The notes below the pieces were generated by a model. That model was not told the origin of the DNA. It made no database searches and worked only from the letters and a program-made list of their open reading frames with translations. Below, piece after piece: positions 635 through 63,906 of a stretch of 64,000 nt of DNA; within the stretch, counting starts at the first letter, position 1, and each line of letters opens with the position of its first letter. The DNA lies in assembly GCA_963678705.1 (NCBI GenBank), contig OY783209.1, positions 10,726,001 to 10,790,000 on the forward strand. The letters run 5' to 3'. This stretch comes from Panorpa germanica (lineage: Eukaryota; Arthropoda; Insecta; Mecoptera; Panorpidae). The translations under genes and the position numbers were made by a program.

Positions 635-2113
635 AAACTAAATGGAATAATAAAGAATGATGAAGTCCCCACGCCTTCTTCAAAATACGCTCTGCTTGAA
701 AATGAGTTCTTGCGTTCAAGGTTAGCCGAGTGCGAGGAACAGCTCTCCAAATGTCAGCTTCAACTTGTAAAGGTTGGCATCATCGATTTCCCTAATAGAG
801 TCAATATGATAGAAGAAAAGTTAACAAAAAGCTGTCTATCATATAAGGAACAAATTCAATTATATAAAGAGCAAGTGAACATGCTTAAGAGTCATTATCA
901 GACCTTAGAACTTGTCAAAGAAGAAAATGATTCGCTTAGCGCTCAACTGAGTTCATATTTTGAAAGTCAAGACAATCTAAATAATCCTAGTGCACCTATA
1001 CACCTGTCATCAGCTGTCTCTTGCGATTCTATGAGATCTCGTAATCTTCCAAGCAAAGTCTCGGAACTACGTAGCACGGTTGTAAGTTTTCAATCTGTCA
1101 AAAAGGAACGTGATTCTCTTCGTAAGGAGGTGGAACGACTCAACAAACGACTTCAGCAAAACAATGAAAAGTATTGCGGCGAGTTACTGTGTCTGAGAAA
1201 ACAAGCGCGTGTACTAAAGACTGTCATTGAAGAACGAGATGAATTACGGTCACTCCTTAACCGCTATGAAGGTGTTGACGAAACCATGAAGATGCTGTTA
1301 AAGAAAGCTAAGGATGTAGAGTGTATCCGGAAAGATCGAGACTCGATAAGAATTGAACTAGACCGTGTTAAAAGAAAATACGACAAATGTTTGGGCGACC
1401 ATCAAGAATTGTCTGTACAAGCAGAAATGATGCGGTCTTATGCAAATATTTCTTTAGCGGAGGAAGAACGTTTAATGAAATTAAGCATTTTCTATAAAAA
1501 TTTAGAAAATGAGAATAAAGAGTTGACGAAGAGTTTACAAAATATTAAAAGTGAAAGAGACATGTTTAAATCACAATGGGGTAAAAATATGTCACTAATT
1601 GTGAAGAGGAACCAGAAAGGACTTGATATGAGCAGCCAGGTTGATGGCTTAAAAGTATCAACTGCAGCAACCCAGTGTATCCCTTTCAAAGAAGAGAAAA
1701 CATCTGTTACACAGGTAAGTGTTTCTAATCATAGTGAGATTGAATATTAGTTTGTGTTAACATTGGTCGTTATTTTAAAGCAAACACAGAATAATTCTGT
1801 AGCTGTAGCCAAAGTCCAAACATCAATGAACAAACTGAAGGACCAAATAAAGCAAACCAATGATTGCAGCGCTCTGAACTCAATTCTCCTTCAAATTGGT
1901 GACAAACAGAGAAGAGAAATTGAATTCGAGAAAACAACCGAAGGAAGAATTCAATCCATTATACAATTATTAAAACAATCGGAGGGTTGCCCTCGTGATG
2001 ATATCAATCGTGTGTTGCATTATACCAATACTGCAATTGCAGGAGCCATTGATAAGATAAAGAGAGATAGAAGATTTACGGCGGCTGGTCAAGTTGGTGA
2101 ACCTTGTAGTTAG
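635..2113 (+). pseudogene. Gene A: truncated coiled-coil family member lacking both ends
   Basis: Two exons, 635-1714 and 1781-2113, join in phase 0 to give about 470 residues. The first matches the main coiled-coil exon of the downstream genes: the L-E-N-E-F-L-R start, K-E-Q-I-Q-L-Y-K-E-Q-V, K-E-E-N-D-S-L-S-A-Q-L and E-R-D-E-L blocks. The second ends at a motif shared with gene C (I-D-K-I-K ... G-E-P-C) and stops at once. There is a good acceptor before 635, so the ATG at 617 is probably intronic, though it could serve as a start. No MSYITQ exon is found upstream and none of the small 3' exons is found before gene B. It is either a remnant or a short derived gene. Its coiled coil looks closest to gene B by eye. 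Confidence 0.7.
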
Positions 2114-2760
2114 TTAAGTGGAAGATACGTAATTCTTAAATTTCAAAAGATAAAATAGTTCTTTGCATGATGCAAAATGAAAGGCTTGTTGGAATTATAC
2201 CTTGGAATTTGGTTCGATCAGAAGGAGAAATGTCTCAATGTGATAATGAGAATAAAGTGAACCGAAGATTCAGATATGATGTTAACGGCGAGGGAAGACC
2301 CTGCTGAACACTTGTTTCGCGAATTGACGTTTTTCTTTAAGATTAATGAACTTTAAAGACAATCCGAGATAATACATAACCTACAAATAATCCCATCGTG
2401 CAATTTTTGAACCAGTCCAGCTTTTGATTCATAGTGTGTATTTGTTTGAAATTTAATGTAAACAATTTGTTGTAATCATGACTGAAATATAAAACGTTTA
2501 ACCATTTTTAAACTGATTTGTACAAAGTTGCTATAGCCACCACCAATCATATTGTAACATACATTCAATCAAGGGTGTAGTCACAAGGGTGTTGTCTACA
2601 CCAATTATAATTTACAGAGATAGATAATTAAGTATTTGTATTTTAAAACAATTATTAATATAAGAGGAACATATAAAAACAAATTCAATCTTAGCTACTT
2701 TCCTAAAAACAGTAAAAATCTAGTTTTGAAAACAAAATCGGTTGTGTAAGAGAAGAATTA
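2114..2760. other. Intergenic region between A and B
   Basis: AT-rich sequence with no supported exon. I looked for the CxC-bearing 3' exons of the family after the gene A stop and did not find them. The 5' leader of gene B probably starts near the end of this interval. Confidence 0.6.
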
Positions 2761-2790
2761 TGTAACATCCCTCGTTGTGTATCAATTTTA
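2761..2790 (+). promoter_or_regulatory. Conserved upstream motif of gene B
   Basis: A block starting TGTAAC and containing CTCGTTGTGT followed by an AATTTTAA run lies 162 bases before the gene B ATG. Matching blocks occur before genes C (8621) and D (16567) in the same orientation, while the surrounding intergenic DNA is not obviously alignable. It may be a core promoter or transcription start element. That role is inference. Confidence 0.45.
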
Positions 2791-2922: not shown

Positions 2923-5900
2923 ATGTCTTACATAACACAACGAGAGCAACGATGCCTAGAACAGCGATACGTCCTAAATGATGGTAACGAGTCAATACGA
3001 AGGAGAAGTGAAGCGCGCCCTCTCTCCAACCGGTTGAACTCCTCTGAGGATGGAAGTTCTTGGAATATTTGTGCCAATGTCGGAAGCGTTTATTTATTGG
3101 ATTATGTATACAATCTGAAAACACACGGAAGTGTAAGTGCAATAAATACAAACGAATTGAATTTCGAAAAATAAAAACCATCCGCAATCTTGCATCTTAT
3201 CAACATGACTCAAGACAAGATAAGTATTCTTCAAGTATCCGATTTGAATCCCGGATAGTAAATTCCTAATTTTATTTTTCTGGGACCTCAATTAACATTA
3301 TCCTTTAGAGATCTTCAATATTATTTGATGTGAATTTAAAGACTAATTTTTTGACACGTATATGTAATTCAATCTTCTCAAATTTTCTTTTTGTATGTTG
3401 GCAACAACAGAGAAACTCTTGGAAAATTTAATTGTTGCAAGTAGATTTAATTGTTATTTATTTCCTGCATTTTATTTTCAGGAAAATACGGCAGCTTCTC
3501 AAACGACTGTAAGAATACAAAGTTTTTGCACAAAAACTAAATTACCATAAAATAGAATGTCTAATTTTCTATTATATTTTCAGTGTAAGGAACCTAGCAG
3601 CAAATCGGTGAGTATTTGGTTTTAGATTTTACTTTACGATTAATTACGTTTAATAAATTTTGATTTAAGTTTGGAATGCAAGCTGGCGATGCTGAGCAAG
3701 ATTTCTTACGACTAAAGGAAAATGAGTATCTAAAGAGAAAGCTGGCTGATTACGAGGATAGACTCTCCAAATACCAATCGCAGCTCGCTAAGCTGACGGA
3801 ATGTGGAGCATTCAATATGCCCCGCGAAATAATGCGATTGGAAAAAAAGTTGCTGATATGTCAGCCTTATAAAGAACAAATTGAAATATACAAAAGGGAA
3901 GTGTTCCTTTTAAAGAGACATTGCAAGGCTCTACAAAATGTTAAAGAAGAAAACGATTCACTTAGTGCTCAACTAACTGCAAGCTATGAAAGGGAAGGTA
4001 GTAGTGCTTCCAGTTTATCATCACATCCTTCTAACTCATTATCAGAATTGTCAATGAATACATGTCAGTTGAAGAAATTAGTGACAGATCTTCGTAAAAC
4101 TGTTTCAAATTTAAATTCCATTAAAAGGGAACGGGATTTACTTCGACAGGAAGTAAAACGATTGAATATTATAATTAAAGAAGTTGATGAACATTATTAT
4201 GGGGAGTTACTATGTTTAAGAAAGAGATCACAATCTCTTGACATAATTATTGAACAACGAAATAGTTTGCAATCACTCCTTTTCCGATATGACAGTGTCG
4301 ATGAAATTATGAAGAAGTTAATAGAGAAAGCAAAAGATGGAGATAAGGTACTTGAAGAAAGAAACTCGCTAGTGAATCAATTAAACTTGATGAAGTCAGA
4401 TTATGATGAATGCAAACGTGCATCAGATAAATCCTCCGAGACGATAACTGTGTTGACTAGTTCTATGAAAGCAATGGCAACTGATAGGGACATGCTCTTA
4501 CGAAAAATACAGGAAAATGAATATTTAGAAATGAAGTTGGAAGCATTAAAGAGCTCCTTTAGGGAGCAGTCTCTTAACTTACAAATCACTAAGATGGAAA
4601 GAGATATGTTCAGATGTCAATGTCAAAGATTAGCTGCTTACGTAAAACGAACTGACACCAGTAGCAAGGGAGAAAGTCAACAGCAAGATGCTGCATGTCA
4701 AAGCTTTTCAAAGGTCTCTAACGAAATGCAAATGGAGCGTGATGATGCGGTGGACATGATTTTGAGGAAGGTTACTCCTAAACAAAGAAAACAAATTGAA
4801 ACGAAACACACTATTGATGAGCATATTGAAACTCCAGTCTCATTATTAAAGCATACGTGCCGAGGTAATTGTTCTACTGGGAATATTAGGCTAAAGATGG
4901 AAGCAGGAATGGAGGAACCTTCTTCCTATATTAAGAAACCAAGCGAAGTTAAAGACACCACCGAACAGCTAAAGGTGACGGAACGACAAACTTGCAAGGC
5001 AGATTCTCCTAAAGGTATTGTCTATGATAGAGTAAGAGACTTATTTAAAAGACTAGCGTACTTTAGAGAACATAATGGAGAAATAGAAAAACAAAGAGAT
5101 ACTGAAACCCAAAATGAAATACAAATGTCTGCTGACGTGAAACGTTTCAGTACGGATAAAGTCTCTACCGATAAGGAAGAGATAGAAACGGATAAATTAT
5201 CTACTGACGAAGAATTTGTTAGCACTGATATGGAATCTACTGCTAAGAAAGCGATAGAAACCGCTGAATTAGCTTTTTACCTGAAACGTTCACGTACTGA
5301 TATAGTCCTTGTTGGTAAAGAGGGCAAAGAAACGAAGGAATCAGTTAATGAAGAGAAAGGAGTAAGTACTGATACAGCGGAAATTTGTAAAGTAAAACGA
5401 AAACCAGCTGAATTACCTGCTGCAGTAAAAGTTGCGACACATAAGGCCATTGATGAATTACCCATTGATGAACAAAAAATTAATAACGATCAAGTGTCAA
5501 AGAAAAACAAGAAAACAGTTGAACAGCTGCTCACTGAAATGAGTACTGCTAATCAAATTGTTGTAATGGCTATTGTAGCACAAAAGAAAAAAGAAGAAGA
5601 ACACGTTGCTTTTACGAGGGTAGATAAAACAGAAGAACCTGTTATTAAAAAATTGGTAACCATATTTGAAAAAACGGCACACATTAATGACCGTAAATCT
5701 AAAAGTAAGCCTGTAGAATTTATAGAAAATAAATTACTTACAGCGAACGAATTAACCAAACTAAATACAATACCACCAACAAAACAGGAAGAATACGATT
5801 TGCTAAAAGTCATCAGTAATTTTAAAAATCAATTAGAGGACAAAAGTGGTGCTACTCTGTTCCCGTCAACAACCTCAACGGTTTCTCCTGTTAAAACTAA

Positions 5901-8335
5901 ACTACAATCACTAACTAATCAGCTGTCGACAGCAGAAAGAAAAGTAAAAGATCTTGAGGTTGAATTGGCGAAATTAAAAGAGCAAGGTAAAAAGCGGGAA
6001 GCAAACATGAACGCTAATCTAGCTCTCGAAGAAGATGCGAATATTATGCAAGTACAGAAGTTAACAGAGGCGACGAAGAAAGTGAATGAAATCGCAAATG
6101 AAAATACAAGGCTTAAGTCTGACAATAAGAAAATGTTGAATGACTTCAAAGATTTGAGAAGGCGGTTAACAGGTAAAACATTTTTAACTAAACATTTTTC
6201 GTGCTGAACAATATAACATTTTCTCTCTACATTAATATTTAGTCTTAGGTGTCGATTCTTACTCATTATTCATAAGTGGTAAAGTCAGTGTATTATTTTC
6301 ATTTCTCCAAATAATCAACATATTTGTGCAGCCATGCAAGCAGAATTAGACACCTTAAAACATCACTACGAAACAAAAATAGAAGATTTGGTAAAAGTTC
6401 ATGAAAGAAACATAAATAGTATTGAAAATGTTCATAAGAATATTATAGAGGAAACTTTGCTGGCCAGAAAAATCAACGAGGAGAAACTAAGTAGCGAGTT
6501 AGCCAGTGTTCGCAGGAATTGTATATGCACTCTAACGAAAACTAATCGAGACCTAAAGCGAATGGTGAACCGGTGTTTGGATGTGGTAGGTTTATATTAA
6601 TCAAGCAGTCGTCATAAGACTACTTTATTTTATTACATTCCTAATCATTAGAAACACAGCAAAAGCATTGACGTTAAATTTAGCGAGAAGAAATGTTCAT
6701 GTCCCGATGCTCAACCAGATGAAGACGTGTCACAGTCACTTGTAGCAGCAGCTGTTGCGGAAATTATCGCTAAGATATCATCTGAAGGACTAGAAGTATG
6801 AGTTCTAACATTATTCATTAGCAATGCCAATTGATTCATTTGATTATTTCAATGCATTATTGTCTCAGGGATTAAATTTTGAGGAACTGCGAATTTTACA
6901 TTCTGAAACATGTAAAGTAATCGCATCAATTAGATGGTTCAAAGTGAAACGACAAAAGCGATCTCGAACTGCATCAAATAGTCGGGGAAGATCTCAAACG
7001 TCTCAAAAGTTCTCGAGTGAGTTGATTTAATAAAATAAATTAATTTCTACTTCATAAATCCTTCTATTTAATTATAATTCTTTATAGATCAAAGATCTGT
7101 ATCAGCAGAGCACAAATCTTGTCCTTGTCTAAAGAAGATTAAGAGGAATTATCGAGAACATTTGGTTAATCAAGACATTGCTCAAGAAAAATGTAAGCTT
7201 TCGAAGAGTAAATGGGGATCATACTTTTAGTATTTATTATATTATATATATTAATTGTGTGTGCCTTTCGGCTTTACAATCTACAGTATTATATTTCTAA
7301 TCATACTTTTAGTAATTTGTATTGAATTTATTGCTCCCCGCTCTGAACGCCTAATCCCCTTCTCATTTACCTCCGCCACTGGACCTAATTTTATCATTTT
7401 AAATACCAGATATGTTTTCTCCCTGTTTTCAATAAAATTTCGAAATATAGATATTACAATTCTTCTTTTAGTGATGGATTTGCAATGTACCCTGCACGAA
7501 GATAAACTCTTAATTGAAAAAATTCGTGACTCTAAGATTTCCTGTAAAAAGGAAAATCAAGAATTCTATGAGAAATATCGAGGAAAGAACTATCAGCGTC
7601 GTACGAATCTTCCACTGTAAGTTTTTAAGAAAAGTGGGAAATGTTTATTAGACTATAGCTTATTAGTGCAGTGGCACATTCTGGTTGATGATTTGAGTTA
7701 GCGCTCGGTCTAAATTTAAAATTACATATGGTAAATCATTTTAGAGGTAATCTGGCCAAGACAGATGCAGCACGAAGATGCAAGGCTACCCAACAGTATA
7801 TCTCCACGCATCCGGAAAAAGAAATGAGGGTAAAGAAATTAAATGATGCTTCCGTGTATTTTAAAGTTAAACAATAGCTTTTAAATAAATATTTTATATT
7901 AAAGAAAGAAAAGCCACTGGTTTGCCATTGTTCGGAGAACAATATTAGTGACAAGAAATCGTGTGGAAAAAATCCACCTAATGCTCATTTGGAGGGGGGC
8001 TCAAAAATTGTTCAACAAATATATATGGCGTATTCAACAAGGTATTTCTATTGCGAGGGTATCATTATTATTATCCTGTAAACGAAATTATTTCATATCA
8101 GACAATTAGTAAATTCGCATGGAATTCGCAATGAAATCAAAGAACGAACTTGAGTTAATAATGAATTCACTATTGTTGTTTATGATTTCTTTTATATGAT
8201 AAGTTAAATGATACAATCTATTTGTAAATACTAAATTTTCATTTTTCACACAGATCAAACGTCGCAGAGATCGACGATAAAACAAGCGATTTTATTAATA
8301 ACATTAAATATCAATCAAGTTCCAAAATACTCTAG
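2923..8335 (+). CDS. Gene B: novel tandem-array coiled-coil protein, 1287 aa
   Basis: Twelve exons: 2923-3132, 3482-3508, 3584-3607, 3670-6172, 6332-6585, 6652-6795, 6869-7016, 7088-7192, 7472-7616, 7745-7829, 7905-8041, 8254-8335. The sum is 3864 bases in one frame. Residues 1-70 are the family N-terminal module (MSYITQREQR, then S-W-N-I-C and L-L-D-Y). Residues 88-921 form a long coiled coil. Degenerate S-T-D-K repeats lie around residues 581-618, and the conserved L-A-L-E-E-D-A-N-I block follows. C-terminal exons carry C-I-C, C-S-C, C-P-C and C-H-C dipeptides and end in an I-N-N-I-K-Y-Q tail. Unlike genes A, C, D, E and F, there is no intron between the first coiled-coil exon and the repeat exon. 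There is no signal peptide or membrane segment. The acceptor of exon 11 is the weakest call. Function unknown. Confidence 0.85.
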
Positions 8336-8456: not shown

Positions 8457-8620
8457 ATGTTTCATGAATGGAACTGAAACATTTGTTTTAGATAAATCTT
8501 CTCTAAGTTATATTAAAATATAATTGTTGTTAAGCAACTAAAATTAGATATGTTGTGACGTCACTTATATGAAAATAAAAACAATTTCAAAACAAAATTA
8601 GTCCAAAAGGGTAGTGAATG

Positions 8621-8774: not shown

Positions 8775-11700
8775 ATGTCCTACATAACGCAACGAGAGCA
8801 GAGAGGTCGAGGATTTCTAAATGACTACATAAGCTATGAATGCGAACCCCTCAGAAAGAGGAGCCATGGTCGTTTGAAACGGCTAACCTCCGCAACTGAT
8901 CCACGATCCTGGAATGTTTGTCCAAGCGTAAGGAGTGCTTTCTTGCTGGATTATTTTAATAATCTTGATACCACTCTTTCAGATGTGAGTTGTTCTTACA
9001 CTATACTACGTCCTGTGTGACCATGTATATACATTTGCAAAGCATTACGTAATATGCGATGCATAGTAAAATATGTACATCCATAGAATATACATTTCAT
9101 ATCATGACATGTGCATAATTTTTTTTAAAATTTATTTTGTTGGTGCATCAACTTTTAGTAGTTGTATACATATACAATAATTTATAATATATAATTTGTA
9201 ATTTATAATTTAAAATAAGGAAATTAGGTTTGCTTTGTTTATAAATTCAATAAGGTTTTTCAAATTTTCTTTGTTTTTATATATCAGTTTATATTCTTGC
9301 GGCATATTACATTCCTGTCTGATCGACGAGTACCTTGAGCAGTGGAAAATAATATGCTTTACTGTTAATGGGTTGTTGCATTGTCCGCATATTGGTTGTG
9401 GTTCTTTTTTGAATAAGTAAGTATGAGTATAATTTGTATGGCCTATCATGATTCTACATATTACTACTTCCCGCCTTCTATTTATTCCGTCTGGTAATTC
9501 TTGTTTGCAAATTGATGGTTTTACTTCTCTTAATTTGTTATCACTTTCTTCACTCCATTCTTCTTGCCATGAACAATTTATTATATTTTTGATTTTGTTC
9601 TTTAGATCTGAACATGTAATTGTTGTTTCTTCTGGAATGCGTCCTGAATAAATTGCTTCTTTAGCATAATTATCAACTTGTTCATTTCGTGTGATACCGG
9701 TGTGAGATGGAATCCATAAAAATTGAGTTTTAATTTGCTTGATGTGGAGGTTGTGTATGAGACGGTGAATGGTTTGAATTATTGGGTGGTTGGTATATAG
9801 TGTTTCTATGGCCAATAGGGCACTCAGAGAGTCAGATAGAATTAATACATTCCTTTGGTTGTTTGTTGATGTGATTTCTTGTAAACTTTCTTTTATAGCA
9901 TACAATTCAGACGTAAAAACACTGTTGCTTGTATTTAGTTTAATTTTTCCAATTGTATCGCGCATTATAAAGGCGCAAGCTGTTTGAATTTGAATGTGCA
10001 TATTTGAACCATTGCTGCATGTACATAGTTTATTCATTTTATGTATATGCAATACACAAGCATATACAGGATTTTACTTATAATCAATTATTTTTTTTTA
10101 GAATAATATTGCTGAAGATTCGGACGTAAGTATTCAACTTTTTTTTAAATAATAAACGTGCATTGACTCTTGCTAATTTAATATAAAATTTTCTTAGAGC
10201 CCCATAGCTTCTTTATCTGATAGAAGTGTTCCCGAAAGTGCTGTAAGTTTAAATATTTGATATGAGTAATTTGATAGACGTATTTGATATGAATATTGTT
10301 ATAGGTTAAACCATTTTTTACAGAGATTAGAAGTATATCCGTTTAGTAAAAAAGCCACAAGTAGAGTTCCCGCAAATAAAGCTTCCGCAAGTAAGGTTCC
10401 TGCTAATAAAGTTCCCACAAGTATCGTAAGTACACCCGTTTTACTTTTAATAAGTTTTTAAGTTGTCTATTATAAAAATTACAAGTAATTTTTCTTACCC
10501 AAAATTGAAAAGATGTTATAAGGTAACTAATACTATATTGTTGAAATAGGAAGAACAATTTATCCCAACATGCAGCTGCGCGACACAGCGTTGTACCTGC
10601 AAATCAACACAACGTAAATTGCGACAGCTGGAAACGCAAACAAGTTCTACATCTTCCACACCATTACCGAGTGTGCCTCCACCAACCCCACTGCTGGATG
10701 TACCATCCTCACAACTTTTACTGAATGCTGCATCTTCACAGCAGTTGCTAAATGTTCAAACATCACCATATTTAAACGATGGTCCTCCCTCTTCGAAGTA
10801 TCTAAGCGAAGAGAATCTATATTTACGAAGAAAGGTGGCTCAGTGTGAACAATTATTGAACAGATATCGAGCCGAATTGAGCGAGTGTAATACTTTTCCA
10901 ATCTCGCGAGAAATAAATAAGCTTGATGAATTGCTGCTAATACCTGGTTTGCCACATAGAGAGCAAATTCGTTTATTTAAAAAACAAATAGGTTTACTGA
11001 AAAGAATGTGTAAGTCTTCACAAAAACTACAGGAACAAAATACATCACTTAAAGCTCAACTTCGGGCAAGTCAGGAGCGGGAATCGAGCAGTTCTTCTAG
11101 TGTCTCAATATCCGAGATGTCATCTTCTACTATTGTAGATTCAGGAGACATTACTCAATTGGGAAGATTACTTAAAGAACTACGTAACAACGCCTTAAGT
11201 ATTCATGCCCTCAAAAAGGAACGTGACAGCCTCGTTGAGGAAATAAAACGTTTAAATTTACACATAAATGAAATCGATGAGAATTATTGCGGGGAAATAT
11301 TATGTTTGAGGAGACGGTCTGATATGTTAGACAATATCGTAGAAGAACGAAATGATCTTTACTTGAAACTTCAGTGTTACATTGATTTAGACGAATCCAC
11401 GTCGGAGTTATTAAAAAGAATTAGTCAGGTTGATGTTATACGTGAAGAAAGGGACGCAATCTTAGTTGATCTGACCGCAGAAAAGTCTAAATATAAAGAA
11501 CTTGTTATTAAAATCAATAGTTTATCTGAGGAAAATACACTCTTGAGTATCTCGCTGGACAAAATGTCATCAGAAAGAGACTTTCTTTTGAAAAGAATTC
11601 AAGAGGATCAACGTATAGAAATAGAAAACTCAAAACTAAAATGCTATTGTGAAGAACAGAAGAACAACTTAAGTATCTTGCAAGATGAAAGGGATATGCT

Positions 11701-14700: not shown

Positions 14701-16184
14701 GAAATGTACTTGTCCAAACACACTCACTGATGAAGAGTTGCAAAAAATTGGTCCTGGAGGAGACATTGCTACAATATTATCTAAAATAGCCAATAAGGGA
14801 TTGGAGGTAATACCAACATTTTCATATAGTTCAAATTATGAGAGTTCGACGGCGACTCATTAAGCCGAATTCTCGCAATTTAAACTATACAACCTCCCTC
14901 GATGATTTCAACTTGTTAATCCTTTTGTTGCAGGTATTATCTATGAATGAATTAAAAGTACTGCATAATAATTTATGTAAAATAGTGGCAAAACGTAAAG
15001 GGCTAAAGGCCAAACAATTAAAATCTAGGAGCCGATCCACGGTTGATGCAACCGCCAGGGTATCCCACCACAGTGAGTACATGTTGTCCAATTGTTAAAC
15101 ATAACTTGTTTCTTATGGTGCTTCCAACCAATATTACTTTGCAGCTCTAAAATCCAAATCTGCACAAAGATTACCTTGTTATTGTCTACAGAAAATACAT
15201 AGAACGTATCGATCTGTATTGAAGAAGCAAGATTATGCCCAGGAAAAATGTAAGCACATAAAATGCGATGGATGAAAAAGTTTACAATAATTGAAACATT
15301 TTAATATAAATTTTCCATTAGTGGCTACATTGGAATATCAAGCAAATCAGGATAAATCCGTGATTGAGAAGATGCGGCAATCTTTATCCTCAGGAAAAAC
15401 GGAGAATGCATCTTTTCGAGAACATCTTCGAGGAAAAATCTGTCAATGTTCACACAATAAACCTCTGTGAGTGCATTACTATGCTTACAATGCAAACGGA
15501 AACCAAATTAATTATGTCACTCCTTAATTTTACAGAAAAGATAAATTAATTAGCTCTGTAGACGCAGCCATTCGATGTAAATGTGCACTGCGATCCATGA
15601 ACGCTTCTCCAAAAGAGGTAAAATAACTAACTGCTTTATTCATGTAAATGTATTACCAGTGAATATGAATTTCACGAGGCGAATTATTTTGTTTATTTGA
15701 ATTAAATGTGAATTCACGTTTTATTCTTTTTATAAATTATTAGCACAAAAAGGTCCTTTCTACTTCTCCCTCATGTAAATGTGCGGAACGAGAGTGTGTG
15801 AAGGATCCTTGTGGAAAAGATCCACCCTGTGCTGAAACTACTGCAAATGTTAAACAAGTGTACGCGGTGTTTACCACTACTAGGTAAAATTATTCATACA
15901 TTTTTTGAATTATTTTTAGCAAAACGCACATACCTATGACATACAATATAGGTTTTACAATACAACAGCATATACATAGGATATGCAATATACATGAATG
16001 TATATACCTTGAATATAGTATGTATATTCAAATGTTTTCTGAGATCTTTTATAATGTTGCTTTTAAAGAGTTGCATTTTTTTTTATATAGGCCAATGCTT
16101 GAAGACGGGCATGACAAAAGGAACAGCTTCATAAATAACATCAAATTTCAACCAAGTTTCAGGAATTCTAAAAGTAATAAGTAG
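8775..16184 (+). CDS. Gene C: novel tandem-array coiled-coil protein, 1648 aa
   Basis: Fourteen exons: 8775-8984, 10102-10125, 10198-10242, 10324-10425, 10550-11914, 11997-13992, 14233-14597, 14672-14806, 14934-15072, 15145-15249, 15322-15466, 15536-15617, 15744-15883, 16091-16184. The sum is 4947 bases in one open frame. Residues 1-70 are the MSYITQ module and 128-582 the conserved coiled coil. Residues 583-1247 contain two tandem repeats (A-G-T-G units about 931-967, then 11-residue units about 984-1117) and the L-E-E-D-S-N coiled-coil block. The downstream exons carry C-I-C-D-L-E-R, C-T-C-P-N, C-Y-C, C-Q-C, C-K-C and a Cys-rich patch with D-P-C-G-K-D-P-P-C, and end with I-N-N-I-K-F-Q. Exon 3 could start two bases later, but only this start keeps the frame. 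Intron 1 carries a LINE fragment. Probably an intracellular scaffold; function unknown. Confidence 0.88.
9210..10052 (-). mobile_element. LINE 3' fragment with RNase H domain
   Basis: An antisense open frame of 280 codons lies inside intron 1 of gene C. It shows a non-LTR retrotransposon RNase H: S-E-L-Y-A-I, then L-S-D-S-L-S-A-L, then W-I-P-S-H-T-G-I-T-R-N-E-Q-V-D. It is followed by the usual C-terminal region with G-H-T-N-Y-T-H and a C-x2-C ... H ... C knuckle. No reverse transcriptase or endonuclease is present, so this is a 5'-truncated copy. The clade is probably I/Outcast-like. An A/T-rich tail borders it near 9120-9209. I could not define a clean target-site duplication. Confidence 0.8.
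13041..13150 (+). repeat. 15-bp tandem repeat coding A-G-T-G units in gene C
   Basis: About seven tandem units of the type GGTGCTGCTGGAACA in frame, each coding five residues (G-A-A-G-T and variants). It sits in the variable region of gene C, just before the 33-bp repeat. Confidence 0.9.
13196..13600 (+). repeat. 33-bp tandem repeat coding 11-residue units in gene C
   Basis: About twelve direct units code S-S-S-K-G-A-E-A-G-V-(N/D). The units are nearly identical in the middle and decay at both edges. Period 33 keeps the frame. The composition is Ser/Gly/Ala/Lys/Glu-rich and hydrophilic, so the segment is probably disordered. Confidence 0.9.
14827..14889. repeat. Short palindromic MITE-like element in gene C intron 8
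   Basis: A near-perfect inverted repeat: TAGTTCAAATTATGAGAG on the left pairs with CTCGCAATTTAAACTA on the right, separated by a short GC-richer loop (GACGGCGACTCATTAAG). The arms match the terminal repeats of the element at 29939-30150, so this is a very short family member. Confidence 0.65.
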
Positions 16185-17377: not shown

Positions 17378-17415
<38 letters not shown>

Positions 17416-45248: not shown

Positions 45249-45325
45249 GGTTTGGGCCCCCCTGAGCCTTCATTGCGCCCCCCTTGGGGGTCGCGCTCCA
45301 CACTTTGAGTTCCGCTGTACTAGCG

Positions 45326-52000: not shown

Positions 52001-55000
52001 GATGAACTTGTTCTATAGTACCGTGCTTATTGCGGAAGCCAAACTGATGTTCGGGTATTAGCTTTTTTCATTAATAATACATTTTAACCTCTTAACGTAT
52101 ATTTTTTCAAATAATTTCAATAGCATCGGCAGTAAACTTATGGGCCTATAGGAAGTAACCTCTTCCGGTTTTTTCGTAGGTTTCGGAATCATAATTATTT
52201 GAGCAACCTTCCAACTACTTGGATAATAGTTGGTTCTAAGAATTGCATTAAAAATGAAAGTAATTAGTTTTATACATTTTTTAGATAGTTCGAATATTAT
52301 CTTTCCTGTGATTATGTAACCGTATATTACAAAACCGGGTAATTTCCTAATATCGATTTCTTTTACTATTGTTTCCCAAGTTTTTCCTTGGTTGCAATTT
52401 TTCTATGAGGAAAATTCATTTGGAAAGGGCTGTCCAGAAAATCCAAAATACAATTTTCTTCTTCTGCAGCCGTTTCTGAAGGATACGGTTTGAACACTTC
52501 ATGCAGATGATTAGCAAACATCGTAGCCTTTTCTTTGTCATTCCTTGCCCATTCATTTTTATCATCTTTGATAGGAAGGTTGTGTATTTCTGGTCTTTTA
52601 ATCTTCCTTGTTGCTTTCCACAGCGAGTACTCCGTAACTTCCGATGATGTAAAAGTGTTCCTTCTTGTTGTTGTGTTTTGGTGGACAATAAATTGCTGAG
52701 ATTGTTACTGGGCTAACTTCATTTTCAATAGTAATACTGGTGGCCTGTAAATAATCCAATGCAAACTTCTCTCTTTCATGATGTGCAATACTGTCTTTTA
52801 TAATTATTGCAGTTCCACCATGTGCATTACCATCCGGATGTCTAGTGTGACATATTTTATATTTTGGAATACTAATGTAATGCCGTTCAGTGAAGTGGGT
52901 CTCTGATACCATCATGATATCTATGTCTTGGTCAATTAAAAAAAAAATTTAGTTTTCGAGAGTGTTGGTGTAAACTGTTTGAGTTCCAAACAGACAATTT
53001 ATACTTTTGTTGTTTATAGTTTTGTTGTTGTGCTGTCATTAGGCCAATTTACTAACTACGACAGTAAGTAGCATGAGCATCGTCCCCATCTGTTCCATGA
53101 GGCACAAAATATGACAGATTTTATATTTGTATGAAATTGAATTTTATAAGATTTGAAATCAAAAGTTTATTTATGCACTCATTTTCTAGCTTACCTTTTG
53201 ATGGCTTTGATGATGTTTGGGTTTTCGATGCTACCTCTGACGTATATAGCGGCGTATTTCTTTTCTATACCACCCACTGGCTTTGTAAAAATGGTAGCGG
53301 TGTTTACAATCTTAGGTATAAAATTGAATTTTTATTTTCATACATATAGCCTTGCTTTTCCTATTTTTGTAGGTCAGGGCTAATTATTTATTTGAAAATA
53401 AAATATTTCGTAATATTTACAGGCCCATTTCTGTATTTCGCTACTCACATAATGCGCAAAATGCTCGACTTACACGATGAAGCAGATTTAATTGAAAAAA
53501 TAGGTTTGCTTGTTCCTCACTTCGCAGTTATTCTTGCAATTCAAAATTTGAATGACATTGCTCTTAGAACCGAAGTAAGTTTCTTGTAACCAATATTTAA
53601 GGAGCATAAGGAGTTGAGAGTATAGAATAATAAATAATCCTACGATTCTATTTGTTTCTTAGATATGCCACATGATGTGCACAAATGCCAACATTTGCGA
53701 TTTTGAAACACAATGCAACATACAGCCTCTTTGTTGCTATCGTAAGTGCTAAATTCTACTATGTAATGATAGTAATACATGTAACCCACTCCTTCTCTGT
53801 ACCTCTGCCATCCATCATCTTCCTCCATACTCGTGCAATTAAAATTCGTGATTTTTTAGTTTTGGAAGAGAATTACTATTTGATGTGGGACAATCCTGGT
53901 CTTGGGAAAGTCTTAATCTATATGATGGTCGAAGGACTTGTTTGTTTCTTCGTTCTGCTCTTAATTGAATATCAACTTATCACATGTGCTCTTTATAGAA
54001 TTCAATCAATATTAATATGTAAGATATTTTGTTTAATGTCGCATACTTTTATAGCAGTTTGTTGTTGACCACCTTAATGTCTAATAATATAATTCTAGGG
54101 ATAAAAGATCAGGTGACCAAGCTGAACGCTGTTATAGGTATTTTTCAACTTTTATTACTATATATATAAATATATATTCAGGGCCGGCCCGAAAAAACAC
54201 GGGTCCGATGTAAAGTTGACTTGCGGGATCTTTAGTATACAATAAATTTTAATTTCTTGCATTTGACTATTTATAACATTGAACAAATTAGTACAATAAG
54301 GAATACATGAAGCGGATAAATAATTTAATTATTATTAATAAATAAATAATAACAATTATTATAAAAAGAAATTTGGTAGGCAAATAGTCGACCACTGGTA
54401 GAAATGTCGACCACTTTCTTTTGAGTATAAATCGTGATTATTTGTACATCTCTCAATTTTAATGACATTCTTAAGAACACCATCAAAATAATTTGTAAGA
54501 AACGCAAGTAATTCTATGATTCCTAACATGATAGAAAATGCAATAGATGAAGATGAAGATGAAAGTGAATATCAAGATGAAATTGAAGATGAAGATGAAG
54601 ATGAAAATAAAGATGAAGCGGTATTGGCAGAAAAAGATAAAGTGGACTCACTGGATCACAATGAAATTAAGAACTATGATCTAGTAATGAAAAACTTGAC
54701 CAAATATTATAAAAGACTTCTTGTTGTGAATAAGATAAGTGTAGCCGTCAAATCGGAATGCTTCGGATTGCTTGGGAGCAATGGTGCTGGGAAGACAACA
54801 ATCTTTAAGATGTTAACAGGCGATGTATCGATATCTAGTGGAATGGCTTGGGTCAAAGGCCTATCTGTAAAGACCGACAGCGTAGAAGTTAACAAACTGA
54901 TTGGTACAAATTTAGAGAGAGATATGATTTATTTACTCTTTACTCTTTGCAAAGTAACATTTTTTTTATATTTAGGATACTGTCCACAATTTCATGGTCT

Positions 55001-56570
55001 CAATGACAACTTAACTGGTAGGGAGAATCTGGAAATCTTTTGTTTACTTCGCGGAATTAAAAGAGAAGAAACTTCCAATGTTTCTGTTAAACTTGCAAAA
55101 GACCTAAACTTTATTGAACATATTGACAAAAAGGTAATTTGAAGGTTTAACAATGTAGTGTTATGATATGAATACATGAGTATTAAAATATCTACCAGAA
55201 ACTGGCTTCGACCCCAGATTTTCTGTTTAGTACACAGACGCTTTAAAACCAAGCTATCTCTGGCAAAAATGTTTACTTATTTTTAATTGAAGACAGAACT
55301 CGTTGCATTGGTCGTTGAACAAAGAAGGTTTCATTAGTGCTGCCTAGCTGTACATACAGTTTCTTTATTGAATCAGTTGTCAATTCATAGAAAAGTCGCA
55401 ATCGCTGGATATTTCTATTTAATTGAATTCTATTTTAAATGTCGAATGTATCATAGGTCAGTGAATACAGTGGAGGGAACAAAAGAAAAATAAGCACCGC
55501 AGTCGCTCTCATCGGGAATCCAGGTGTTATTTATTTGGATGAACCAACAGCTGGTAATTAATTAAAAACCTAATAAACAACTGCATTTGCAGGGTTTTGT
55601 CCTTTTAGTTCTCCTTGCACTTTAAATAAATACTGCAGTGTTTAAATATAAAATAATTGCAAATTTGTGGTTCTAATAGCTAGCTTTATTTAGTTAGCAT
55701 ATTGTATAAAAACAGGAATGGATATATCGGCGAAAAGAAATTTCTGGAACGCTGTGTGCAAAGTGCGCGCATTGGGCAGGTGCATCATCCTAACCTCCAA
55801 CAGTATGGAAGAATGTGAAATTTTATGTAACAGATTGGCAATTATGGTCAACGGAACATTTGTGTGTCTGGGGTCTACAGAACAATTAAAAAAGAAATTT
55901 AGTTCGGGTAAGAAATAAATTGAGTTATTCATTTTTTATGTATTTATTATGAAATAACTTAAAAAATTTGACCTCGTAGTGATGAAAGGTAATAAGCTAA
56001 AAAACTTATTTTAAAAAGAAAATTGCAAACTAGTTTCCTCTTAAATATCAAATATAAGATTGTTATAAATATTCATATTATTATTTTTCAGGAATTACTT
56101 TAACTATAAAACTGTTGAAAATGAAAATATCTGCAGATCAGGATGTCACTAACAGGGACAAGTTCTACACTGATAGATTAGACAAAGTGAAGAATTTCAT
56201 TACTAAAAACTTTCCACAAGCTACACTACAGTTAGTACAAACAAGTATTTTGTCATTTATTTACAACTAGAAGACTTTCCAAGAAAATATAGCCCGTCTT
56301 TTGAAATTGCTTAGACAAAAGTTTATTATTTACTTTATTAAGGGAATTAATTATTAAACAAATAGTATTTTAGCCATTTCCTAATTTATTTTTAGGGATG
56401 AATATCAATGTGTCCTTGTGTACGAAATACCAATTTCTGAAGCTCCAGGATCAAAGATTTTTGGAGTAGTCAACAAAGCAAGAGACGAACTAGAAATTGA
56501 AGATTACAACGTGGGGCACACTAGTCTACAACAAGTCTTCATTTCATACATAAATAAACAAAGATATTAA
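46013..56570 (+). CDS. ABCA-2: full ABCA-type lipid transporter, 1721 aa
   Basis: Same 28-exon structure as ABCA-1: 46013-46209, 46378-46648, 46731-46949, 47031-47246, 47326-47469, 47563-47689, 47779-47968, 48037-48239, 48304-48525, 48599-48828, 48906-49071, 49154-49576, 49654-49836, 49946-50145, 50214-50426, 50496-50600, 50657-50828, 53190-53315, 53423-53574, 53663-53741, 53860-54018, 54099-54137, 54535-54903, 54976-55133, 55457-55553, 55716-55907, 56092-56230, 56396-56570 (5166 bases, open). Both NBDs keep Walker A, signature and Walker B. Exon 19 is one codon longer than in ABCA-1 and differs at the same place. Intron 17 is expanded by a jockey-type LINE. It retains AATAAA 56 bases after the stop. 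The family is known to export or flip phospholipids and sterols. The substrate here is not deducible. Confidence 0.93.
51102..51998 (-). pseudogene. LINE reverse transcriptase fragment
   Basis: 298 codons with reverse transcriptase blocks [22 protein letters not shown] and F-P-D-D-T-A-I-L-A, followed by the thumb region (Y-L-G-I-H-L-D). The catalytic box reads F-P-D-D rather than the usual F/Y-A-D-D, consistent with decay. Jockey-clade organisation. Confidence 0.9.
52416..52915 (-). pseudogene. LINE endonuclease and linker fragments, frameshifted
   Basis: The frame at 52598-52915 shows an apurinic-type endonuclease piece ([19 protein letters not shown]). The adjoining frame at 52416-52688 overlaps it out of register, showing a frameshift. 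The N-terminal endonuclease residues are missing because the element is truncated. Confidence 0.75.
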
Positions 56571-57115
56571 CAATTTTGTGTTTTAAATGACTTATAATTA
56601 ATTTATATTTCACAGCTAATTATGAAATAAAATATGCTAAAGTTGATGGGGTCTGTATTTGTTTTAATTAATTTAATGCACTATGTAATAGATACATCAA
56701 ATATACATCAGCAATTAGTTACTTATTCCTAGATCCAAGATCACTCGCTATTTTGGATTTCCAATTATTATACGCGCCCCAAATTTCAACCTTCTATCTT
56801 TTCTATTTCAAGAGAAAATTATATTTTGACAGTTTATTAGATGCGCAGTAGCAAAATAACTGCTAACTCTCAGCCAGGTGTTCCATTTCCTGTTCTAGTA
56901 GTATAAAAAACTTTTGTGCAAAATGGGTTTGTGTCCTCATTTTTTAGAGGTCGATTTTTCAATTGTTAATTGAAATTGATGTTAATAAATGTGTATTGGC
57001 GCGTCTATTTTATTAAATATCTAAATGTTGACGGAGATATAGCAATTAAAAATTTGAATTGTAGTTTTAGCGCTAGAGATGATCGACCATATTTTTATGA
57101 CGTGAAATGCATTTT
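56571..57115. other. ABCA-2 3' flank
   Basis: Holds AATAAA at 56626-56631, the likely ABCA-2 poly(A) signal. The remainder is AT-rich with no supported gene. This flank is absent after ABCA-1. Confidence 0.6.
56626..56631 (+). terminator. Poly(A) signal of ABCA-2
   Basis: AATAAA 56 bases after the ABCA-2 stop codon, beyond the point where the ABCA-1 flank diverges. Confidence 0.6.
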
Positions 57116-57560
57116 AACGTCAGTTATTTGTTGAGTAGGTCAGTGCTGTGGTAATGTTTTGTAGCTGTTAGTAGTCAAATAATCAAATCAAGTCAAAGAA
57201 TAATAAGTTTTTATTTTATTTAACCCTGTTACGGCAGACATAATATTGAAATTTTATTGTTTCTTGAAATAGCTGTAAATAATATTTGATATTTTGATAT
57301 ATAAATACATATAGCAGAGATTTATGAGCTGTAAGGTTGGTAGCGGTTGTGATATCACATGATGTCACATGCAATGGGAATGTGCACTACGTTGAATCCC
57401 TTTAATAATTAAAGAGACAAAATGAGTTTTTTAATTGTTAATATCTCCTAACATATAAGGAGTTATTAAAAAATAATTGGACATTTGAGATTCAAGTATT
57501 CCACTTTATCAATATATAGTACACTTTTATAGAAATTAAGACATAGGACACAAGCCCATT
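57116..57560. repeat. Duplicated intergenic spacer, copy 2 (matches 1-450)
   Basis: Direct repeat of the window start. It lies upstream of gene F exon 1. Similarity ends near 57560, about 320 bases before the gene F ATG. Confidence 0.85.
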
Positions 57561-57883: not shown

Positions 57884-60800
57884 ATGTCTTACATAACGCA
57901 AAGGGGGCAGAGATATGGGGGCGTCATTTTGTATAACATCTGCAAATCGACACGAGAACAAAAGAGATGCGAGGGTCGTCTTAAAAGATTCGATTCTTGT
58001 GTGGACGCACGAGCCTGGAACGTCAATGAGAATATTAGAAGCACCTTTCTAATGGATTACGTGAACAGCTTTCCAGAGAATACCTCCGACATACTTGCTG
58101 AAGGGGTTAAGTTTTGAATCTCTTTTATAGAAAATTGTAAACGGAATTTGCGAGTTGGTTTTAATAATTCATATGATATTTATTCTGAAATTTTCACATA
58201 GCTTAATATTATAAATGTAATGTAACCGATAGCTAAAAGCTTATTTTACAGGTGTGCTACATCATACCTGACCGTTGTAAATTATTTAAGATTGCGACAA
58301 CAGTTTTATATAAATTACGACTTAGTTCACAATCTATTTCTAACTGGTATGTAATTAAATTTATTTTGCAGGATCCGATTGCATTAGAAATTGGAAGTGC
58401 ACCAAAGAAAAATGAACTGTTAGAGACGAGTGAACAAAAGTTGGAATATGTTGTTGCAGAAAACAATTGTCTACGTAAAAAATTGGCTCAGTGCGAAGAA
58501 AATCTTAGCACATGCCAAGCTCGGTTGAGTACTTTTTACGAAAACATATATACGACGATACCAACAGAATTAAGCAATATTGAAGATAAATTACAAAAAC
58601 ATAATCTTTCGTTCAAAGAACAAATAGAAATATATAAAAACCAAGTAAATTTACTTAATAGTTATCGCAAATCGAAACACTTACTAAAAGAACAAATTGA
58701 TTCACTTAAATGTCAAATTAACGAGAATGCGGGAAACGAAAAGAAAGACACTTCTAACACATTGTTATTAAACCACCTGACTGAAGAAGAATCCGCAAGT
58801 ATTAATCAATTGCAGCAGATGGTTACTGAACTGAAAACCACAATATCAAATCTGCAACCCATTAGAAAAGAGCGAGACAGTCTTCGCAATGAGATTAAAA
58901 TGTTAAACGCCAAAATCGCAAAGATCGACAAGAATTACATGAAACAGTTAAATAGCATTAAACAGGAACGCGGGGAAGCTGGAGGGGAGGGACAATTAAC
59001 GCAGTTATTGGTGAAACTCCAACACACTGATCAACTGAATAAGGAAAGAAATTTATTGGTCGAGCAAGTAAACTATCTTAAGTCAGAGAATAAAAATCTG
59101 TTTAATGAAAAGAGATTATTGCAGCAATCAGTAGCATGTATAGCAAGTGAAAGAGATATGCTCCTTGCTCAAATTCAAAAAATGCAGTTAGAATCTACAC
59201 TAGATAGTCCCAAAAGCAATGATACATCAAATATGGTGAAAGAATTAAAGAAGCAGGTGCAGACGCGCATGAATTCTGAAAGAAATCTTAAAAAAGAGTT
59301 AAAGAAGAGAGGGAGCACTACAATGATGCAGAAGAATTTAATTAAAAGACTTACAGATCTCATAAGTAACATGATTTTTGAAAAGGTACAATTATTGTTG
59401 GGAAATGTTCATTGTGTAGTTTTAATTAGTAACAAATGTGATTTTAATATCACGTTTTCTTTTTAGGAACACCTAGAACTGTCTCTAAGTGACATGACCC
59501 TAGAATTCAATGAAGTTGCTAGTGAGCTATCGCTAGTTAAAGAGGAAGTTAAAGAAATCAAGTTGAAAGCAACTGGAATGCCATCCCCATCCATGATGAC
59601 AGAAGAACATAAAATGCAAATGGAAAGAAAAGTGGAAAATATATCTCAAAAAACAGGACAAACTGAGGAAAATGTAATACAGAATGATATATCTGTAGTA
59701 AAGAATGAAGATAATAGCAACTTAGAAGTATGCTATCTGTTAGAAATGCTAGTTCACAATATTAGAGAGAAACATGAAGAAAATAAAATGTTACAAAACG
59801 TGAGAGATGGTAAGTTCAACAGTTCGGTACAAATACCTGAACCGAATTACGCGCTCTCCGAGTACGACTTTGGCAATTGTATTAGATGCAGTAGATTGAA
59901 AAAACTGTTTGATAAGTTGAAAGATCTTGAAAATATAAATAGAAATCTTAGAAAAAGTATTAGTGGCATAAGTGAAGATAAGTGTAAACTCTTAGATAAG
60001 TCAGTAGATAAAAGAACTAGTGCACAGAGTGAGCAATCAATACAGCGAATACCAGTAGATGAGATGAATAATGAATCCAAACTGACAAAGATTGTCGAAG
60101 AAAAAGATTCCAAAGAAAATCAAACGATTTCAAACGATTCAAACGAAGAAATTTCTGCAGGATTAAATCAGACATGGATGGTGCAAAAAAGAGATTCAGC
60201 AAAGATTGTTGAACAGAACGAACACATTATGCTATATCCATTATACGCAATAGAATTAGATAAAGCAAAAAGAGCAAAAGTAAATAAAAATCCACCTGAT
60301 AAGAGAACAGCAGTAAAGTCAATCGAAATACAAACAGATGCACACTTCAATCGATCTGATGCAGCATTGCAGATCGTTCGGAAAAATGTTGCTTTTTTTG
60401 GTGAGGATAAATCGGTAGAAACAGATGTAAAGTTTACAGATCTAGAAGCATCTACTAGCGAAACATTGTTTGTTGAACAAGCAAATTTACCTATAGCAGA
60501 TGAACCTAGTGTGTTTCCAGGAGGAGTACCTGTTAACAAAGATATTAAAGTTGTATTGGATATCGCACAACAGTCAAGAGAAGATGCTCATTCTGTACAG
60601 CTTGAACCATCAAATCCAGTCCAATTGTCGCAAATCGAGCTGGAAACATATGCTACTCAAACGCCTTCAGTACGGGACGTGGCGCAAAATACGGCAAAGC
60701 ATGAACTAAAAATTATTGGAAATGATTCATCAATTGTTATTGAGGAAGAGTCACAAATATTTGAATTAATGCCTAATAGATCGCTATTAGTACAAGTTGA

Positions 60801-63800
60801 TAAAAATACCCAAATAAAGTTAGATGTGGAAGAAGAAGAGTTAACAAGTGTATTTAAATGCGCACAACATGAAATCGATGCAACAACTCAAACAAATAAA
60901 GAGAAAGAGTCACAAATATTTGAATTAATGTCTAATACATCTTTATTAGCACAAGTTGATAAAAATACCCAAATAGTAATAGATGTCGAAGAACAAGAAG
61001 AGTTAACAAGTGTACCTAACTCCGCACAACATGGAATCAATTTAACAACACAAACACATGAAGAGAAAGTAGAAGAATCAAAAATATACGAATTTATGCC
61101 CAATAGATCGTTAGTAGTACAAGTTGATAAAGATACCCAAATAGAGTTAGATGTGGATGAAGAAAAGGTAAAAAAGGTACCTAGATTGGCACAACATAAA
61201 ATCGAAGGAAAAGAAATACCTAATAGATCATTATTAGTACAAGTCGAAAGAACAGAAATACACGAATTTATGCCTAATAGATCTGTATTAGTACAAGTTG
61301 ATAAAGATACCCAAATAGAGTTAGATGTGGAAGAAGAAGAGTTAACAAGGGTACCTAAGCCCGTACAAGATGAACTCAATGCAACAACTCAAACAAATAA
61401 AGAGGAAGTAGAAGAGTCAGAAATATACGAATTTATGCCTAATAGATCTTTATTAGTACAAGTTGATAAAGATGCCCAAATAGAGTTAGATGTGGAAGAA
61501 GAAGAGCTAACAAGGGTACCTAAACACGTGCAACATGAATTCAATGCAACGACCCAAACAAATAAAGAGGAAGTAGAAGAGTCAGAAATGTACGAATTAA
61601 TATCTAATACATCTGTGTTAGTACAAGTTGATAAAGCAAACCAAATAGAGATAGATGTGGATGATAAAGGGGTAGTACAGTTATGTTATGTCGCACAGCA
61701 TGGAATGGAAGGAACAATACAATTAGATGATAAAAAACTGGAGCGGAAAATAAATGGTATTGAACTGGAAGAATTATACAAAAAAGCAATACTTCATCCA
61801 AAATCAGTGGATGATCAAAATCCAAGTTTCAAACCTTTAGATTCATCATCGTCTACTTTACAACTCACTAACATAGAATCATCCGAACTAAGTTCATCCA
61901 GTGCAAAACACTTAGACGGTGCAACGTATACTGAGAATACATTTGATCGAGAGATTAAACAAAATAATTTAGTTCAAATGAATTGTGCTGTAGATGTACT
62001 TTTTAATTCAGCTCTAGATGCACGTGCGAAATTTACGCAACTGATTCCCCCGGGAAGAGTCACACTTTCAAAGAGTGCTCTCCTTACTCGTCTACAAAAT
62101 GCAAATGTTGTAATGGAAAATATATGCCCCGAGAAATTAACGTTAGCTGCTGCATCCGATTTAGCTGTTCTAATCCAATCACCGATGGAAATGTGTACGG
62201 CTCTAGTTAAACCAGCGTCACCAAAACCATATCACCCCACTAAGGCTGTTGCTGCAGAAATAGTTGCAAAGGTGAACAAACGTCCTCACCATAAAGCACG
62301 AGCTGTCAGAAATAAGAACAGGTGTGAACTAGGTGACCGTGAACGAGTCGATGCTGCTACTGAAACTGATGATATCTGTTTTAATGATCTAGCTGCATTG
62401 AGAAGTAGGTGTGGGGAATTTGAAAAACGCAACAACTTAAAAGACCTGCACTTAGAGCATTTAAATAAAACAATTAATATACTCAAAAGCCAATTAGATA
62501 AAGAACGTGTTGAGGCCGCTGCGACTATAGAAAGCAGATTACAGAAAGCCGATGAAGAAATTAGTTACCTTACCAACAAAAATAAAAAATTGCAAAATGA
62601 ATTAGATGACATACAAGAAGAACTATACCGTGAGTATTTTCTTTTATTTACAATATGAATATCCTTTATTGAGTACTAATTGGTATCATATTTTTGTATG
62701 ATATTTATAATCAGTTCAATTTTCTTTAGGTTTGCAACGACAACTAAGAATATACCAAGATAACCCAATAACTTTTCACTCACTAAAAGCGGATATGGAA
62801 AACGAAATAAGGGAATTGGAAAACAAAACACTGGACCAAATTTCACCAAGAGCACACATAGCTGTTATGGAATATGTTAAAAGGGAACCAAAGGAAATGC
62901 ATAATATAGGACAGCAAATAGATTTTGAAACGAAAGCAAAAGATCTGGAAAAAGATGATATTTGTAAAGGTGAAACACAGATGGAAAAAATACAAAAAGC
63001 TATTATGGAAAAAATGCAAAGAGAATATTTGGAAGCAAAACTGCCGGAAATAAACGTGCTAAATAAAAATGACAATACAACGAATGATAGTAACTGCAAT
63101 TTGGAACAAGAACTAACAAATATCGACAGATTACCATCTGGGCGAAGCTACAAGCCCAGTTCAAACGTTTCTGACGCCAGTTCCTCTAAACGCTTCGATG
63201 GAATTGTTCTCAAATTGTATATTTGCGGAATGGGGGTAGGTTTTAATGTTACATTTACTTATTGTATCAATATATTTTTCAATACCTTATACTCGTAGTT
63301 ATAATAATCGAATATAAATCTTGTCATAGGTTTTAGACTTAGACGAACTTAAAGTTCTCCATGCGAAGACATGTCAGGCGGCTGCATTGTTAAAAGGATT
63401 CCAATATCCAACAATCCACAGTAGCACCTACTGTAAAACACGATTTAGGTCAAGCTCAACCAAGCCGGTATCTAGAAAGAGCAAGCCAGTCAAAGGTAGT
63501 GTTATCCTTCTATTAGTTCACCGAATAAAAATTGCTAAAGGCTCCTATCCGTTATTTATTATACTTTATTTTACACAGCCCGACGAAGCCAATCTCTTAA
63601 AAGTGAATGTCGTCCCTACCAAAGGAAAAACACAATTCCAAATTATAGACACATTCTGAAACAGCAAGACACAGTCACTAGAAATCGTAAGAATAATTAA
63701 AAAGAGTCAAATTTTATGTAATTATTACTTTCTTGTTCAAGGAGATGGATTCTAATAATTAATTTTTCAGTTATAACATTTGAATATGAAATTAAAGCAG

Positions 63801-63906
63801 AAAAATCTATGACTCGTATCAAAGACTTAGATGAACTAAAGCGAAATGAAAACCACAAACAAAGAGTAAAATTACGGGAACAAATTTGCCCTTTAAGTGC
63901 CCCACA
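57884..63906 (+). CDS. Gene F: coiled-coil family member, 3' end beyond window
   Basis: Seven exons are visible: 57884-58105, 58372-59385, 59467-62629, 62730-63235, 63330-63495, 63579-63686, 63771-63906. Together they code about 1771 residues and the last ends in phase 2 at a good donor. Residues 1-74 are the MSYITQR module (A-W-N-V-N, then M-D-Y-V-N). The conserved coiled coil spans about 75-412. The large exon carries about six repeats of roughly 55 residues (about 839-1150) with TQT and TQI motifs, then a final coiled coil. The next exons match the family (D-E-L-K-V-L-H). The exon with C-T-C-P-N in C and D has no counterpart between exons 4 and 5. An open stretch at 58252-58346 just before exon 2 is treated as intron, because the gap after it would be only 25 bases. 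Confidence 0.85.
60745..61680 (+). repeat. About 165-bp tandem repeats coding 55-residue units in gene F
   Basis: Around six units with the pattern E-S-E-I-Y-E-F-M-P-N-R-S-L-L-V-Q-V-D-K, then D-T-Q-I-E-L-D-V-E-E-E-E-L-T, then A-T-T-Q-T-N-K-E. The third unit is partly collapsed, with a second N-R-S-L-L-V-Q-V following directly. Strongly acidic. Confidence 0.88.

Follow-up and report, generated by a model that had tools for sequence, protein, structure and literature searches.

A tandem array of genes for long coiled-coil proteins was found on the plus strand of a 64,000-nucleotide (nt) stretch of the genome of the mecopteran Panorpa germanica (assembly GCA_963678705.1, contig OY783209.1, here C6; C6:10726001-10790000), hereafter the window. 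As a whole, the array is best read, on balance, as coding for intracellular structural proteins with coiled coils, a tandem family that expanded within the lineage. It is almost certain that the family exists and that the gene models of three members, B, C and D, are correct. The long members appear to share one plan: an exon-1 motif, a heptad rod, a variable middle that often holds a private repeat, a helical stretch, and a tail that in most copies has CxC motifs (cysteine, any residue, cysteine).

The whole genome (464 Mb in 249 contigs) was searched with the rod exon of D, which matched 12 of 16 scored candidates: U1, U2, A, B, C, D, E, G, H, I and J on C6, and X on contig C2. All eleven C6 copies lie on the plus strand. 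The same eleven were recovered from the 136-kb neighbourhood by tblastn with B, exon by exon, a search that gives lower bounds for copy counts. The array is cut by the window, with U1, U2 and exon 1 of A to its left and H, I and J to its right; there are at least eleven related genes on C6, and the twelfth copy, X, lies elsewhere. A first-pass annotation of the window had described seven related loci, head to tail on the plus strand. Their relatedness and orientation hold; their number has to be raised to at least eleven genes, and F, listed as the seventh locus, has to be struck off as a truncated duplicate of the 3' part of E that is not a gene. The sequence comparison supports a single coiled-coil family.

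Genes B, C and D are open from the initial MSYITQR through to the stop codon, with AG/GT at every internal exon border; the first-pass chains had likewise closed without a stop codon. The tail phases (1-0, 0-0, 0-1, 1-1, 1-2, 2-0, 0-2, final) recur in eight of nine long models (U2, B, C, D, E, I, J and X). U1, the ninth, has its repeat exon fused with the first exon of the tail; its remaining phases keep to the order. The conserved 3' phase plan proposed earlier is thus retained. Four complete chains, B to E, had also been proposed. Those of B, C and D stand; that of E, as modelled, contains one in-frame TAA, which is avoidable only through a 78-nt GT-AG intron (26639-26716).

The models differ in how they were obtained. 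B was assembled manually from the sequence. The tails of C and D were given by a spliced protein-to-DNA aligner with protein B as query and no phase information: in one run all phases of the C tail were right but D was given 2-0 for its first tail exon, and in a second run all were right. Several exon borders of C and D were shifted by hand after alignment. The models of U2, I and J are alignments to the D protein. E was assembled by hand with the phase plan in mind, so that its fit to the plan is not independent. When the D protein was aligned to six loci (B, C, E, I, J and U1), scores of 836 to 2774 were obtained, versus 246 to 425 for reversed or shuffled D and 19 to 152 for D on the minus strand. 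Scores on a control stretch outside the family were 72 for D and 50 to 64 for its reversed or shuffled versions. That reversed and shuffled queries score above the control on family loci is expected from common composition and repeats.

Exon 1 is a strongly conserved linear segment that opens with MSYITQR, has a further core RKRSEGRLKRFDS..D.RAWN...VRS.YLLDYV, and contains 14 columns that are invariant across all 12 copies. It is probably a docking or targeting motif. The rod has a 3.5-residue hydrophobic periodicity above that of shuffled sequences in all 11 proteins examined (z from 3.4 to 13.4; G was not in this set), and AlphaFold2 predicts long helices for the D rod exon with a mean predicted local distance difference test score (pLDDT) of 77.6. 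By heptad periodicity and predicted helical rod, the family belongs with coiled-coil proteins in general, and the earlier description of the products as long coiled-coil proteins is upheld.

The middle region contains self-repeats of at least 48% identity in six of the 11 proteins (U1, U2, C, D, I and X); in A, B, E, H and J no self-repeat above 35% identity was found. The units differ: GPDGKPIGTQAI in U1 and U2, SSSKGAEAGVN in C, GPDGKP variants in D, and 22 residues in X. As GPDGKP is common to U1, U2 and D, some arrays are not private. On the sequence reading, the arrays would occupy one slot between conserved blocks; in I, a copy of the first block stands on either side of the array. We infer a second helical stretch after the middle region. 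The tail is encoded by small exons, has several CxC motifs in most copies, and finishes with a DKxxxFINNIKF-like end. CxC motifs number 14 in D (2.3 expected), 12 in C (1.1 expected) and 9 in U1 (1.1 expected). Counted over the whole protein, they exceed all 2000 shuffles in seven of 11 proteins (U1, U2, C, D, I, J and X), although part of those in X fall within a doubtful stretch of the model.

Hydropathy of the first 40 residues gave no sign of a signal peptide in the 11 proteins (no dedicated predictor was used). The best 10-residue value lies between -0.53 and 0.41 in ten of them and reaches 1.28 in E, at residues 21-30. A 19-residue window exceeds 1.6 in two of the 11 proteins, in a poly-alanine run in D and in a doubtful stretch of the X model. 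The absence of a signal peptide and of membrane segments, proposed in the first pass, agrees with these profiles, apart from the two windows in D and X. The first-pass interpretation is partly supported, the undescribed status and the filament role being putative.

A common element precedes the genes. AAACAAA occurs within 300 nt upstream of the start codon in 12 of 12 copies. AAACAAAAT is found within the same distance in ten (not G or X), twice in U2, against an expectation of 0.053 occurrences per 300 nt; the significance of this enrichment is inflated by shared descent. Among the 24 plus-strand occurrences of AAACAAAAT in the 136-kb region, 11 lie at most 300 nt upstream of ten family starts and 13 elsewhere.

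Table 1. Features of the array, in window coordinates (aa, amino acids; negative positions lie to the left of the window)
Feature	Position	Strand	Remarks
A exon 1	-654 to -460	+	left of the window
Gene A, short form	635-2113	+	rod exon 635-1714, last exon 1781-2113 including stop; found with D rod as query; GT-AG borders, no internal stop
B upstream element AAACAAAAT	2730-2738	+	TGTAAC starts 31 nt after its first base
Gene B	2923-8335	+	12 exons, 1287 aa; range includes stop; built by hand
B large exon	3670-6172	+	rod and middle region, no intron between
C upstream element AAACAAAAT	8590-8598	+	
Gene C	8775-16184	+	14 exons, 1648 aa; spliced alignment with hand refinement
C rod exon	10550-11914	+	
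C repeat exon	11997-13992	+	
C private repeat array	13231-13592	+	33 nt (11 aa, SSSKGAEAGVN-like) x 11
D upstream element AAACAAAAT	16536-16544	+	
Gene D	16640-22773	+	13 exons, 1652 aa; spliced alignment with hand refinement
D rod exon	17260-18492	+	
D repeat exon	18559-20818	+	
D private repeat array	19375-20396	+	GPDGKP-type units
E upstream element AAACAAAAT	23248-23256	+	
Gene E	23377-30618	+	modelled with 13 exons and one in-frame TAA; open as 14 exons if intron 26639-26716 is used; tail built by hand
F	40238-43350 (about)	+	5'-truncated copy of the 3' part of E; no start, no rod exon
Gene G (part in window)	57884-63906	+	exon 1 57884-58105, rod exon 58408-59385, repeat exon from 59467
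G private repeat array	60745-61661	+	165 nt (55 aa) x 5.5

The CxC-rich tail, the private repeat arrays and the common upstream element, none of which the first pass had described, bear on function. From them and from the rod we infer that the proteins would work as follows. Rods would pair into dimers, and the exon-1 motif and the tail would anchor them to a common structure. The CxC cysteines would cross-link rods or bind metal, the repeat spacer would set their reach, and the paralogues would be expressed together through a common promoter element, then co-assemble.

Several observations weigh against this scheme. The AlphaFold2 model of the D rod is that of a single chain, with a predicted template modelling score (pTM) of 0.29, and among the 187 matches at E ≤ 10 that Foldseek returned for it from the PDB, none reached E ≤ 0.001. 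Exon 1 on its own was predicted with a mean pLDDT of 52.7 (8 sequences); given this low confidence, it may be disordered, and the prediction also fits a linear motif. No excess of CxC was found in A (0), B (5, a number that shuffles exceed, reaching 6), E (2) or H (2), so cross-linking cannot be common to all members; for most of them it is plausible. TGTAAC stands at variable spacing from the upstream element and is absent from several copies. Since the copies are paralogues, the upstream element itself could have been retained by descent without having a function, and the DNA upstream of the genes may be richer in A than the background region.

No Pfam profile was found above its curated cut-off in ten long open frames, two spliced tails and two exon-1 rows, and no NCBIfam profile in seven frames, in line with the initial statement that the family had no recognisable name. 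The nearest Pfam profile was the HALZ leucine zipper in A, with 27.8 bits for a cut-off of 28.1. An NCBIfam model of a collagen-like adhesin matched the D repeat exon (E 1.8e-10); at 40 bits for a cut-off of 325, the match is read as the GPDGKP repeat and the identity was rejected. Searching the PDB by sequence returned one match for the D rod exon (E 0.32) and 13 for the rod profile, the best with E 0.028. The exon-1 profile matched 21 residues of a Photorhabdus lectin (E 0.0003) and a second chain (E 2.4). All were judged to be due to chance or composition. A single weak match of D to PHROGs (E 0.00034; three frames searched) was likewise attributed to chance. Exon 1 gave pattern matches in viral and prokaryote contigs (11 and 5) and no relative among them. 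As set apart by Pfam and NCBIfam profiles alone, this is apparently a new family, ordinary in kind.

Homology naming of coiled coils is unreliable, and there is a rather good chance that this family, though real, already figures in the annotation of related insects under uncharacterised or misnamed coiled-coil proteins and is of an ordinary kind, which is compatible with the structural reading. The profile searches above speak against such prior annotation, as does the string MSYITQR, which was not found in the literature searched. No description of the array family was found in a literature search that left subscription journals mostly outside, nor in the accessible parts of PMC10721206, PMC13251583 and PMC3032785.

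U1 has 10 exons and 1650 aa, U2 11 and 1622, I 11 and 1675, J 11 and 1764, and X 11 and 1598; the 13 exons of E encode 1555 letters with one stop. A (3 exons, 535 aa) and H (3 exons, 726 aa) are complete short forms without the tail. A (635-2113) and H (66516-68832) end within about ten residues of one homologous point. A single ancestral truncation was rejected for them, with a p-value of 0.007 in the approximately unbiased test (p-AU) for a joint clade, in a weak tree (one of nine inner branches starred) and for a pair picked for its shortness after the tree had been seen. As the joint clade is disfavoured, the short form may have arisen twice.

The tail of E was not picked up by the aligner with the D protein. 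Against a profile of the other eight tails it scores 16.7 bits, the best of 200 shuffles reaching 1.9; by this score its similarity is weak but real. F matches E at 98.2% identity between 25782-26405 and 40238-40861, at 97.0% between 27619-28825 and 41031-42220, and at 92-96% in the last two stretches. It is a by-product of the duplication of the neighbouring ATP-binding cassette (ABC) transporter gene. The transporter copies (31583-40234 and 45977-56584) are 96-99% identical over long stretches, and both contain the ABC_tran domain. An insert interrupts the second copy at about 50860-53103 and holds a reverse transcriptase frame and further open frames (51102-52948, minus strand); RVT_1 was found in 51102-52067, the sole frame tested there. 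The tail of G extends past the end of the window and its borders are provisional.

U1 and U2 span window coordinates -18989 to -1082, and U1 lacks one intron retained in U2. Their synonymous divergence (dS) is low in the body, at 0.07 for the rod exon and 0.085 for the tail, with 0.24 where the next exon begins, and far higher in exon 1 (0.75), a pattern as after gene conversion or partial duplication. By the ratio of nonsynonymous to synonymous divergence (dN/dS), purifying selection is shown for the pair, with estimates of 0.25-0.39 in the four stretches tested, the repeat arrays being left out. X, at C2:23.53-23.55 Mb, adjoins a Uso1/p115 gene. Its middle and one tail exon are doubtful; that tail exon differed between two alignments, and the earlier version was used. 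Its tail introns are kept, so that it was probably not made by retroposition.

These members allow the idea of a decaying array, in which several genes are pseudogenes and function is gone, to be weighed. The truncation of F, the stop in E as modelled and the shortness of A and H would suit it. However, the 10-14 exons of U1, U2, B, C, D, I and J join without a stop, and the U1/U2 ratios given above are those of genes under constraint; general decay is very improbable.

An RNase H domain frame (9213-10073, minus strand) in the first intron of C is probably a retroelement remnant. A frame with a hAT-transposase dimerisation domain lies at 44499-45269 on the minus strand (22.2 bits, cut-off 21.4). 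A dispersed repeat of about 91-94% identity occurs at -195 to 446, 56922-57560 and, inverted, 96914-97486; copies lie in the first intron of A and shortly upstream of G. To the right of the array, an enoyl-CoA-hydratase-like gene is repeated in tandem, its three similar copies occupying 84128-90108 on the minus strand; one of them was tested for ECH_2. Besides this ECH_2 gene, slowpoke-like and Arf-family genes flank the array. A flanking slowpoke exon is identical at 59 of 59 residues to a chain in PDB entry 7pxe, the fly protein.

Where an intracellular structural family of this kind would act can be suggested tentatively. On weak grounds, the sperm tail is the most likely setting, though it is held with less than even confidence. 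A TPH-domain gene neighbours the array, the sole local support for this setting; TPH proteins are linked to flagella. Genes that are tandem, fast-diverging and cysteine-rich follow a general habit in line with it. A somatic role is somewhat unlikely: the same rod-and-anchor mechanics would serve a cytoskeletal or organelle scaffold, such as a golgin-like tether, a centrosome scaffold or a muscle scaffold, rather than sperm. Tethers are built as a rod with conserved segments at its ends, and Pfam matches to Golgin_A5, GAS, CENP-F, FBF1 and CASP_C were seen, all below cut-off; the Uso1/p115 gene beside X is probably there by chance. No family is reached at cut-off, however, and a cysteine-rich tail with private repeats is unusual for golgins.

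The most specific form of the sperm-tail proposal is speculative and has a low probability. It would be an insect-specific system in which a dozen co-regulated paralogues have in common a docking exon and a tail that cross-links through CxC, but have replaced the middle spacer by unrelated tandem repeats of their own. The array would then supply a single structure, such as the sperm tail, with rods that differ in reach, and would evolve at a speed as under sexual selection. If a sperm structure is indeed involved, the array would be a natural series of spacer variants for questions of rod length and repeats, and the upstream element a candidate for a core promoter with tissue specificity. With the exon-1 signature, tail profile and phase plan, genes hidden by generic 'coiled-coil' naming can also be recognised by sequence.

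Among known systems, coiled-coil silk proteins are secreted and have an N-terminal signal. The silks of bees, ants and hornets are encoded by paralogous genes for heptad coiled-coil proteins, according to the accessible part of PMC3032785, which would make a silk-like secreted family conceivable here. It is highly improbable, the least likely of the alternatives, and membership was rejected: as far as that part of the source allows the comparison, the heptad paralogues are alike, but the array proteins are much longer (1287-1764 aa in the long forms), many contain repeats (arrays in U1, U2, C, D, G, I and X), most have CxC tails, and none has a hydrophobic N-terminus; their alanine content is 3.7-9.4%. 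Intermediate filaments resemble the array proteins in being cytoplasmic helical rods, which for the latter is presumed. PF00038 is nonetheless absent at E ≤ 10 from ten open frames of the window, and an intermediate filament identity was rejected; a genome search with it had three hits at E ≤ 0.001, each of them on contig C7. Golgins and other coiled-coil tethers have long rods with conserved ends, as do the array proteins, which differ in having no Pfam match above cut-off. Outer dense fibre proteins and the Drosophila Mst(3)CGP family are cysteine-rich sperm-tail proteins. Richness in cysteine is common to these and to the array proteins, which are presumably structural and intracellular. 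The short motif differs, being CGP in the sperm-tail proteins and, in the array, CxC in coiled-coil proteins, beyond all shuffles in seven of the 11.

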